Source of the DNA: Bacteroidota bacterium
GTDB taxonomy: Bacteria > Bacteroidota > Bacteroidia > Bacteroidales > GCA-2711565
Direction of reading: 5' to 3'
DNA length: 64,000 nucleotides
Assembly (NCBI GenBank): GCA_018816945.1
Contig: JAHIVC010000024.1
Span: 1 to 64,000 of the forward strand
Part shown: piece after piece, positions 11,743-59,588 of the stretch
Layout of the letters: every line of letters starts with the position of its first letter
How positions within the stretch are numbered: the stretch's first letter is position 1
Position numbers and translations under genes: made by a program
Notes under the pieces: model-generated
Databases searched by the model: none
The model's input: only the letters and a program-made list of their open reading frames with translations
Told to the model about the DNA's origin: nothing

Positions 11743-11830
11743 TTAAAAATGATTATTGATTATTGAAAAATGTAAAAATAATCGATAAAAAATAATCAAT
11801 AAAAAATAAACAATAAACAATAAGATAGAG
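11743..11830. repeat. inverted word array between rpsN and rpsH
   Basis: The 88-base spacer is the longest gap within the S10/spc block. Its left part contains GATTATTGATTATTG, and its right part contains the complementary word form AATAATCGATAAA, AATAATCAATAAA and two AATAAACAAT-like units. The two halves are therefore inverted relative to each other. No gene or terminator is present; operon continuity is likely maintained. Confidence 0.55.
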
Positions 11831-51300: not shown

Positions 51301-52176
51301 TTATCTTCTTGCTCCTCTTTTTTTAAATAAAGCCGTAAGGGGCCTTACATAATCTTCACCTGTTTTAATTTTTGCGACATCAACCCCACACTTTTTAAAA
51401 ATTTCATCCTGCAGTAATTCATTCTTTCTTACTGTTTTGCTATAAGCGTCTCTTAATGCTGCAAACGAAGTATCCACCCAGGTCATTCTTCCGGTTTCGG
51501 CATTCTTAATCTTGACCATCCCTACGTTGGGCAAATCATATTCTCTTCTGTCGGAAATTTTTAAAGCGATTAAATCATGTTTACGATTGGCAATTTTCAA
51601 TGCATCTTCAAATCCGGTATCAATAAAATCGGAAATTAAAAAAGCGGTACATCGTTTTTTAATCACATTTGTGAAATAACCTAAAGCAACTGCTATATCG
51701 GTTTCACGGTTTTCAGGTTTGAAATCAATTAATTCGCGAATAATGCGCAATATATGTGAAGTTCCTTTTTTTGGTGGAATGAATTTTTCAATCTTATTAC
51801 TGAAAAATATAACCCCAACCTTGTCGTTATTCTGAATGGCCGAAAATGCCAAAACAGCAGCAATTTCAGTAATCTGATCTTCTTTTAAATTCTGATTGGT
51901 GCCAAATTCATTCGAACCGCTGACATCAATAAGCAGCATTACCGTAAGCTCACGTTCCTCGTCAAATACTTTTACATAAGGATGATCGAAACGAGCGGTT
52001 ACGTTCCAGTCGATGCTCCGGATATCATCCCCATACTGGTACTCCCTGACTTCACTAAAAGCCATACCCCGACCCTTGAAAACACTGTGGTACTGTCCGG
52101 AAAATATCTGGTTCGACAAGCCACGTGTCTTGATCTCTATCTTACGTACTTTTTTAAAAATTTCAGTCGTCTCCAA
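51301..52176 (-). CDS. DUF58 domain protein
   Basis: This 291-residue protein contains the DUF58 signature: IEIKTRGLSNQIFSGQYHS, FKGRGMAFSEVREYQYGDD and RSIDWNVTAR. A VWA-like region follows, with LLIDVSGSNEFG. In these operons DUF58 proteins act with MoxR ATPases. The start codon is TTG at 52176 (METTEIFKKVRK): an in-frame stop two codons upstream excludes earlier starts, and later ATGs would remove the conserved N-terminus. The stop-rich upstream sequence is the edge of the inserted cassette. Confidence 0.82.
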   Translation of the reverse strand: METTEIFKKVRKIEIKTRGLSNQIFSGQYHSVFKGRGMAFSEVREYQYGDDIRSIDWNVTARFDHPYVKVFDEERELTVMLLIDVSGSNEFGTNQNLKEDQITEIAAVLAFSAIQNNDKVGVIFFSNKIEKFIPPKKGTSHILRIIRELIDFKPENRETDIAVALGYFTNVIKKRCTAFLISDFIDTGFEDALKIANRKHDLIALKISDRREYDLPNVGMVKIKNAETGRMTWVDTSFAALRDAYSKTVRKNELLQDEIFKKCGVDVAKIKTGEDYVRPLTALFKKRGARR

Positions 52177-52616
52177 GTCTTATTTAGTTATGAGTTATGA
52201 ATTATGAGTTATTAGTTATAAATTATAAGTTATAGGTTTGCTTTTGTTGTCATTATCGCACTTCTAATCATTTTTAGTAATGCGCTTGCATTTGTGTTTA
52301 TTTCATCAAATTCGTTTGTGCCAATAAATCCTGTTTCTTTAAGTAATTCCAACCAATAGATAGATTCGTCACATTCTTTTTGAGCTATGGCTAGTTTATG
52401 AATAAAATCGGCTTTGCTTTCAGCATTTTGAGCTTCCCTGGCTAAGGCGCCAACCGCAGTTCCACTTCTCAGTAATTGCTTACTCATCACAAATTCTTTT
52501 TTATCATTAATCAATGATTTATAAAGATTAATAATGGTGATTGCGAATTCGAAACTTTGTTTAATTATTGCGCCTTTCTTTTCACTCATAACTCATCACT
52601 TATAACTCATCACTCT
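52177..52616 (-). mobile_element. four-helix-bundle cassette flanked by inverted word arrays
   Basis: The gene 52230-52589 is bounded on each side by repeats of a ~10-base word. On the minus strand the start side has GTGATGAGTTAT twice and ATGAGTTATGAG. The stop side has ATAACTTATAA, ATAACTAATAA and ATAACTCATAA. ATGAGTTAT and ATAACTCAT are exact reverse complements. The arrays abut the moxR stop (2-3 bases away) and the DUF58 start. This has the look of a precise insertion of a gene with inverted ends; no transposase is present. Confidence 0.5.
52230..52589 (-). CDS. four helix bundle protein (23S rRNA intervening-sequence family)
   Basis: This 119-residue helical protein (FEFAITIINLYKSLINDKKE, VMSKQLLRSGTAVGALAREA, CDESIYWLELLKETGFIG) belongs to the 23S intervening-sequence/four-helix-bundle family. 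That family also includes the Avd accessory protein of diversity-generating retroelements. Its ATG (52589) is part of an upstream repeat word and its TAA (52230-52232) lies in the downstream array. No reverse transcriptase or template repeat is nearby. Its function here is unknown. Confidence 0.8.
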   Translation of the reverse strand: MSEKKGAIIKQSFEFAITIINLYKSLINDKKEFVMSKQLLRSGTAVGALAREAQNAESKADFIHKLAIAQKECDESIYWLELLKETGFIGTNEFDEINTNASALLKMIRSAIMTTKANL

Positions 52617-53609
52617 CTATGGTACTTCAATCGTATTTAAAATCTCATTGATGATTTCTTCGGTTGTGATGTTTTCTGCTTCGGCCTCGTAGGTCAAACC
52701 GATTCGGTGACGTAATACATCATGTGCTATCGCCCTGACATCTTCAGGTAAAACATATCCTCGTCTTTTAAGGAAAGCATATGCTTTTGATGCCAAGGCA
52801 AGGTTTATACTTGCACGTGGAGATGCGCCGTATGAAATCAAATTCTCAAACTTTTTTAAATTATGTTCAGCAGGATAACGGGTTGCAAACACGATGTCGG
52901 TAATGTATGTTTCAATTTTATCATCCAAATAAACTTGCCTCACTACATCTCTGGCATTTTTAATATCGACTGATTTAAGGATTTTATTCGTCGTCCGAAA
53001 AACATTTGTAATGTTTTGACGCAGAATAGTTTTCTCCTCTTCTTTTGTAGGATAATTAATCACCACTTTGAGCATAAAACGGTCGACCTGTGCCTCGGGA
53101 AGTGGATAGGTTCCTTCCTGCTCAATCGGGTTTTGAGTGGCCATTACCAAAAAGGGTTCTTCGAGTTTAAACGTGTGATCACCAATGGTAACCTGACGTT
53201 CCTGCATCGCTTCCAAAAGTGCACTTTGAACTTTCGCGGGCGATCGGTTGATTTCATCGGCAAGGATAAAGTTTGCAAATATGGGCCCTTTTCGAACTAC
53301 AAATTCTTCCTTTTTCTGACTATAAATCATGGTTCCTAAAAGGTCGGCAGGCAGCAAATCAGGAGTGAATTGAATCCTGCTGAATTTTGCATCGATCACA
53401 TTTGCCAATGAATTTATGGCCAAAGTTTTTGCCAATCCGGGAACTCCTTCAAGTAAAATATGACCATTGGCCAAAAGACCAATCATCAGGCGTTCTACCA
53501 TGTTTTTTTGCCCAACAATCACTTTGTGCATTTCAAGATTGATTAAATCAACAAAAGCACTTTCCTTCTGTATCTTTTCGTTTAATTCTCTGATATCGGT
53601 TTCCATCAT
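52617..53609 (-). CDS. MoxR-type AAA+ ATPase
   Basis: This 330-residue ATPase has the Walker A motif GVPGLAKT (about 55-62), Walker B LADEINRSPAK and the MATQNPIEQEGTYPLPEAQ sensor region, with the C-terminal lid (ASINLALASKAYAFLKRRGY). MoxR proteins act as chaperone-like partners of VWA and DUF58 proteins. It is the first gene of the bat-type operon. Two ATGs (53609 and 53606) are adjacent. A minus-strand TATATTTG at 53643-53636 may be its -7 box. Confidence 0.9.
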   Translation of the reverse strand: MMETDIRELNEKIQKESAFVDLINLEMHKVIVGQKNMVERLMIGLLANGHILLEGVPGLAKTLAINSLANVIDAKFSRIQFTPDLLPADLLGTMIYSQKKEEFVVRKGPIFANFILADEINRSPAKVQSALLEAMQERQVTIGDHTFKLEEPFLVMATQNPIEQEGTYPLPEAQVDRFMLKVVINYPTKEEEKTILRQNITNVFRTTNKILKSVDIKNARDVVRQVYLDDKIETYITDIVFATRYPAEHNLKKFENLISYGASPRASINLALASKAYAFLKRRGYVLPEDVRAIAHDVLRHRIGLTYEAEAENITTEEIINEILNTIEVP

Positions 53610-54118
53610 TTTTATGTTAATTATTTATGACCTTGCAAATATATTAAACATGAATTTGGTTTGGATGTTAAAAATTGTTAAAGCAAGTTAGGGAAAAGTT
53701 AAATGTGTTAACGTATTAACGTGTTTGCGTGTTTGCGTGTTTAAGTGTTTAGGTATTAACACTCCCGCCCAGCAGGGGAAGTTAACTTTAAAAAATTTTA
53801 TGCGTCTTTGAAAAGCCGGGCAGGTCTATAGTTGCGCAAAAAATAATTGACTGAATATTAAAGTGCTTACAGACATGTCAGGCAGTATTATGTCTGATAA
53901 ATTTCAGTTATTTATTCAAAGTCCAAAAAAATTCACTTTCAAAATAACTTGCGGTCTGTTAAAAAGCAAAAATATTTTTGTATTTTAAAATTTAACGCGG
54001 TCTATTGTTTTGTGCAAGATTGCTTTTCGTTGGGTAAATTCCGTAAAAACCGCTTCTATCTTTGGCGTTTGCCGCAAAACATTACCGGTATACAAATTTT
54101 TCACGCCGCTTAAAATAA
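53610..54118. other. intergenic region, no gene seen
   Basis: This stretch holds a possible moxR -7 box (minus strand, 53643-53636), the word array at 53701-53760 and otherwise unpatterned sequence. Short open frames occur but show no protein-like features. Confidence 0.4.
53701..53760. repeat. degenerate word array (TTAACG/GTGTTT type)
   Basis: Sixty bases made of related words: GTGTTAACGTATTAACGTG, then GTTTGCGTGTTTGCGTGTTT and AAGTGTTTAGGTATTAAC. The words are the reverse complement of those at 1512-1551. Confidence 0.5.
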
Positions 54119-55053: not shown

Positions 55054-55108
55054 TTAACAATGAAACAATCGAACAATGAAAACAATGAAACAATAAAACA
55101 ATGAAACA
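55054..55108. repeat. word array (AACAATGAAACAAT type)
   Basis: AACAATGAAACAAT-like units occur about four times with small changes (CAATGAAACAATCG, AACAATGAAAACAATG, AACAATAAAACAATG). It ends 10 bases before the stop of the DUF3352 gene. Confidence 0.5.
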
Positions 55109-59576: not shown

Positions 59577-59588
59577 AAAATAGCCGTA

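Follow-up and report, generated by a model that had tools for sequence, protein, structure and literature searches.

What is a small gene doing between moxR and DUF58, with its start and stop codons inside arrays of short repeated words, and has it moved there as a unit? The question is raised by a 64,000-nt stretch of DNA from a Bacteroidota bacterium (assembly GCA_018816945.1, contig JAHIVC010000024.1, positions 1 to 64,000; hereafter the window), in which the gene belongs to the four-helix-bundle or 23S rRNA intervening-sequence protein (IVP) family. A preliminary description had taken the insertion for a self-contained mobile cassette without a transposase. Comparison with other copies leads us to a similar view: the feature is probably one copy of a small mobile DNA cassette, made up of a single IVP gene between two inverted arrays of words of about 7 bp. 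Its parts are as follows.

52230..52589, minus strand: four-helix-bundle / 23S rRNA IVP-family gene, 119 aa (PF05635, E 7.5e-24; TIGR02436, E 2.6e-27)
52582..52615, minus strand: upstream arm, a heptamer array (ATGAGTT/GTGATGAGTTAT words) that holds the start codon (Tandem Repeats Finder (TRF) period 7/14; inverted match to the other arm)
52184..52233, minus strand: downstream arm, an inverted heptamer array (ATAACTC words) that holds the stop codon (TRF period 7/21, score 61-75)

Anatomy of the Window Copy

The gene order on the minus strand is moxR, the 119-aa IVP gene and DUF58. The IVP gene begins with ATG at 52589 and its TAA stop ends at 52230; full-length profile matches lie above the curated cut-offs (84.4 bits against 33.8 for PF05635, 95.2 against 24 for TIGR02436), and the closest PDB chain is 2rld (E 6e-34), deposited with five chains. 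Upstream, the moxR stop codon TAG is followed by AGA and then by GTGATGAGTTATAAGTGATGAGTTATGAGTGA, within which the ATG lies; downstream, the TAA stop opens CTATAACTTATAATTTATAACTAATAACTCATAATTCATAACTCATAACTAAATAA, and the array ends about 4 nt before the TTG of DUF58. TRF places the two arrays at 52582-52615 and 52186-52233, with periods of 7, 14 and 21. Aligned as a 31-nt inverted repeat, the arms (AGTGATGAGTTATAAGTGATGAGTTATGAGT / AGTTATGAGTTATGAATTATGAGTTATTAGT) match at all but six positions, a score reached by none of 2000 dinucleotide shuffles. Between them, the list of open reading frames (ORFs) and a profile search gave a single ORF and no transposase domain. The preliminary description was accurate in these respects: a small four-helix-bundle gene separates the two operon genes, its codons fall within arrays that abut the neighboring reading frames, its ends are inverted relative to each other, and no transposase is encoded. 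Its further proposal that the arrays supply start and stop signals applies to the lineage of the window gene (L013, L115, L117); the arms of most copies are 8-100 nt away from the start.

Agreement of the Two Arms Within Each Copy

PF05635 has 25 matches in the host genome, and IVP genes are present in 116 of 148 sampled Bacteroidota genomes, at up to 25 copies per genome. Arrays flank most of the host-genome copies, each with a word of its own (e.g., GTTTCATTGTT, CAGTCTTG, AGAGTGCCT, AGTTGAGTGG), and words differ from copy to copy and agree within each. Each left flank was scored against a reverse-complemented right flank, taken from the same copy or from another. For 21 own-genome copies the arm score was 21.3 within copies and 11.2 between copies, with no permutation of 20,000 as good, and the within-copy agreement of 30 copies from other Bacteroidota was likewise equaled in none of 20,000. 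As lenient scoring gave a high background in AT-rich intergenic controls, strict scoring was adopted for the final figures. By this measure inverted arms flank, in the host genome, 14 of 21 IVP genes and 6 of 326 ordinary genes, while across 123 elements of the phylum a strict score of at least 12 was obtained for 56% of within-copy comparisons and 2.6% of cross-copy ones.

The same arrangement extends to about a dozen phyla, including Cyanobacteriota, Chloroflexota, Planctomycetota, Acidobacteriota, Pseudomonadota, SAR324, Nitrospirota and Patescibacteria. Among copies outside the Bacteroidota, 32 of 43 have inverted arms, as do 2.9% of cross-pairs, and scores of 12-14 in this set are weak taken singly. 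Their words include GGGAGTC, GGCAGTC, GTGGACG and AGGATCA, and arrays flank IVP genes in the same manner on cyanobacterial plasmids and on an Azospirillum plasmid. On the Pseudanabaena galeata plasmid pPg_01 (L285), a four-helix-bundle gene lies between cas6 and cas4 with long direct AAAAGCT arrays.

Although the words differ, they obey a loose common grammar. The flanks show clearly positive autocorrelation at lags of 7, 14 and 21, with no comparable signal at other lags. A single 7-position profile fitted to 68 non-redundant arms contains 2.48 bits; the highest value among 40 phase-permuted controls was 2.16. With the arms read as on the gene strand upstream, A stands at position 4 in 77%, a purine (A or G) at position 5 in 98%, and there is almost no C at positions 1, 2, 4, 5 and 6. 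The heptamer TAACTGA, as its reverse complement ATCAGTT, fits this grammar, which hints that previously described orphan heptamer arrays may be related to IVP arms. Arrays of 7-8-bp words that enclose no gene also occur in the window, at 53720-53750 (CGTGTTTG), 55056-55108 (AACAATGA) and 11773-11823 (TAAACAA). The words CGTGTTTG and AACAATGA resemble those that flank four-helix-bundle genes elsewhere in the genome (L010, L014), and by this resemblance the arrays at 53720-53750 and 55056-55108 may possibly be solo arms.

Evidence for Movement and Turnover of Cassettes

The closest relatives of the window gene stand at other sites, and most copies have inverted arms. In the congener G002 a gene 72-76% identical to the window gene, with the same arms (TTATGAGTGATGAATTATGAGTTATGAGTG / CTCATAACTCAT), is found at the end of purD (L115), where the arm encodes the last residues of purD and its stop codon (new end ISYE*). 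The corresponding spacer is empty in five congeners (G001, G003, G004, G005 and the genome of the window itself):

59577..59588, minus strand: empty site, the spacer between purD and the next gene that holds the sister cassette in G002 (comparison of purD junctions)

The gene and its arms have thus behaved as a movable unit, as had been proposed. More generally, copies at different sites share words in 26% of pairs with at least 60% protein identity and in 1.9% of those below 40%, a trend to which kinship of the host genomes contributes. Two four-helix-bundle genes 16 kb apart on contig C73 of G000 (L006 and L007) are 74-76% identical and have arm words in common; the sister genome lacks the gene at the L007 site, and none was seen beside the matching L006 flank.

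The locus itself is also variable. Its neighbors are:

52617..53609, minus strand: moxR (AAA_3 ATPase), upstream (PF07726, E 1.8e-66)
51301..52176, minus strand: DUF58/VWA gene with a TTG start, downstream (PF01882, E 2.8e-78; junctions in 29 relatives)

Among the 29 relatives compared, six (L029, L037, L042, L048, L051, L055) have empty moxR-DUF58 spacers of 10-22 bp, and the sister genome G001, whose DUF58 is 98% identical, has an inverted array at this junction and no gene. Elsewhere the site is occupied. G004 carries an orthologue that is 68% identical and has an in-frame stop. Different elements also use this junction (L049, L030): in G094 there is an unrelated family member with other words, and in G088 a decayed one whose word is different again. 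The preliminary description had named two patterns that would speak against it, namely the gene at this site in all relatives or no empty site in any, and neither was seen. Its suggestion that the DUF58 start "has become TTG" fared less well. Junctions that lack the gene have TTG (L037, L048), GTG (L029) or ATG (L042), and a change of start codon by insertion is therefore not supported. No target-site duplication was found, the empty-site alignments being too diverged to define duplicated bases.

Turnover is likewise seen between the sister species G000 and G001, whose DNA is about 91% identical. Genes are missing at L013 and L007, and in the cysD-cysN spacer a cassette has given way to another whose words differ (L012/L138). 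With a third genome included (L071), this spacer holds three different four-helix-bundle genes with different words. At L017 (G000) and L146 (G001) the gene and inner arms are reversed between colinear flanks, an apparent inversion. At the site shared by L016 and L142 the genes have a dS (synonymous divergence) of about 1.1 between flanks that are about 90% identical, as if a homologue had been exchanged, and the flanks of L004 map inside two different G001 contigs (L237, L200), which may mean that a rearrangement broke at the cassette or that the assemblies differ. The comparisons used draft near relatives, one genome per species, and the empty-site calls in G001 cover about 1.7 Mb, only a part of that genome.

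The encoded protein is under constraint. Orthologue pairs have ratios of nonsynonymous to synonymous substitution (dN/dS) of 0.06-0.24, indicating that the protein is maintained; IVP copies with in-frame stops also occur. The presence of the same unit at different sites and the empty sites make mobility of the cassette well supported.

Points Against and Alternative Explanations

Several observations weigh against a mobile cassette. No transposition event was observed, and neither a target duplication nor a mobility enzyme was found. In relatives many genes keep to a single site (thiolase, nuoC-nuoD and others), from which it follows that movement is rare. As the near relatives are all draft genomes, misassembly at inverted repeats could account for the L017/L146 inversion. 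The arrays are direct in some copies (L002, L009, L111, L285), about 40% of copies in Bacteroidota have no clear arms, and heptamer arrays without a gene are also present in the host genome. A Y1 transposase, considered as a required partner, was rejected: G000 has four Y1_Tnp copies, and the complete genome G127 has nine IVP genes and no Y1_Tnp.

The alternative that survives best makes the arrays passive. Heptamer microsatellites would grow by slippage and be kept inverted by template switching or arm-to-arm correction, and a gene caught inside would be moved by ordinary recombination. Such a process would account for the gene-less arrays in the host genome and at the moxR-DUF58 junctions of relatives (L027, L032, L043), and for heptamer arrays known without any link to a gene (PMC4679880); the inversion and the missing RNA signature described below would also fit copying at the DNA level. 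It does not readily explain why inverted arms are so much more frequent at IVP genes than at ordinary genes of the same genome, why they recur in about a dozen phyla, or why a gene brings its word along to new sites, and we consider it unlikely.

The second alternative places the element at the RNA level, as in the intervening sequences (IVSs) of 23S rRNA: the arms would pair in the operon transcript and RNase III would cut the stem, releasing the RNA of the gene, so that an insertion within an operon is tolerated. The gene family and anatomy are those of the Coxiella IVS, in which 28-bp terminal inverted repeats surround an S23p ORF and RNase III excises the element (PMC4990558). In a fold of the window sequence the arms form the outer stem, and most cassettes occupy spacers between co-directional genes, with both neighbors in the direction of the IVP gene in 97 of 121 cases. 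At fixed sites, moreover, orthologues differ in the arm word yet match within each copy (0 of 20,000 permutations, combined). RNA pairing could produce such covariation. Selected RNA pairs should, however, leave a clear excess of G-U over A-C mismatches, and G-U-type mismatches numbered 135 against 157 of the A-C type (97 against 130 in a first set; 669 against 665 in a cross-copy control), so that an RNA-stem model receives no support and the arms appear to be kept alike at the DNA level. They may be alike because the unit is young, because the two arms recombine or because they are recognized as DNA ends. Furthermore, the fold has a z-score of only -1.9, and about 10% of in-operon copies are antisense (both neighbors antisense in 12 of 121), the co-directional bias being one that could reflect either insertion preference or tolerance. 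Insertion into rRNA was also considered; a search of 40 loci from other phyla gave no match to any Rfam family, those of rRNA among them. We regard an RNA-level element as less probable again than passive arrays.

In a third alternative the gene would be an ordinary accessory member of the moxR-DUF58 operon, inherited vertically and set between AT-rich spacers. This would suit the orthologue at the same site in G004 and the purifying selection. It is very improbable, being already contradicted by the empty sites and by the sister copy at purD; the closest genome and most relatives also lack the gene at this site, and the in-frame stop in G004 is a further point against it.

How Such a Cassette Might Work

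Of the preliminary description, then, the inverted ends, the lack of a transposase and the movable unit stand, the DUF58 start change falls, and arrays as start and stop signals hold in part. In the mobile cassette that we favor, the word would vary freely between copies within a loose purine-rich grammar, and the two arms of one copy would have to agree. Cassettes would settle in short spacers between co-directional operon genes, mostly with the same orientation as these, and gene and arms would spread together. The arms would act as DNA, either as inverted repeats or as hairpin or cruciform ends, and would not be maintained as an RNA stem. The most likely role of the protein, a pentamer-type four-helix bundle related to Avd, is to bind the arms and bring in an enzyme that is supplied in trans. 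The sequences themselves show inverted copy-specific arms, a common word grammar, covariation of arms at fixed sites, one unit at different sites, empty sites, purifying selection on the gene and no G-U signature. From these we infer that movement is cassette-encoded, that the protein binds the arms and that an outside enzyme does the cutting and joining.

A bolder generalization, somewhat more apt to fail than to hold, is that IVP genes form a pan-bacterial mobile class whose ends can be any heptamer word in inverted arrays, the pentamer reading a 7-bp period or a generic A-R core and not a sequence. The rRNA IVSs, Avd and the orphan arrays would then be offshoots or remnants.

IVP genes are common and have had no accepted function for decades. 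The tie to inverted heptamer arrays across about a dozen phyla makes the old suspicion of mobility directly testable and suggests where orphan heptamer arrays may come from. Paired ends that match although their sequence is free set the cassette apart from known transposons, and the result points to a little-noticed class of mobile DNA. In the open-access literature we found no paper that ties IVP genes outside rRNA to heptamer arrays.

Comparison With Known Systems

Four known systems invite comparison. The Avd accessory protein of diversity-generating retroelements is a homologous four-helix bundle (PMC10053308). The cassette arms are not the template and variable repeats (TR/VR) of such elements, and neither a reverse transcriptase nor a variable-repeat pair was seen beside the window gene, the rest of the genome not having been searched for reverse transcriptases. 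REP/REPIN-RAYT systems and IS200/IS605 elements also have hairpin or inverted ends, are short and can exist as non-autonomous copies; the cassette, by contrast, has no conserved end sequence, its word being free, and genome-wide no need for a Y1 transposase.

Cyanobacterial short tandemly repeated repetitive (STRR) heptamers are 7-bp repeat arrays. Arrays of the heptamer TAACTGA have been described, without a link to a gene, in Beggiatoaceae, cyanobacteria and Bacteroidetes (PMC4679880). Both resemble the arms in being intergenic 7-bp units, often near start or stop codons, and the arms do consist of tandem intergenic 7-bp units by TRF and by autocorrelation at lags 7, 14 and 21. The described arrays, however, are direct and have no gene or inverted partner, whereas here an inverted pair surrounds an IVP gene.

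The 23S rRNA IVSs share most with the cassette: a PF05635-family protein, a lone small ORF flanked by terminal inverted repeats, the lack of a transposase gene, and a mobility long suspected. They differ in that IVSs reside in helix 25/45 of 23S rRNA, whereas the window cassette has the inverted-repeat anatomy at a different location, the moxR-DUF58 spacer of an mRNA operon; in that cassette arms are arrays of copy-specific 7-bp words, with many copies per genome; and in that these arms bear no sign of selection for RNA pairing. We rate the 23S rRNA IVSs as the closest known system, and the cassette as a variant of that kind.
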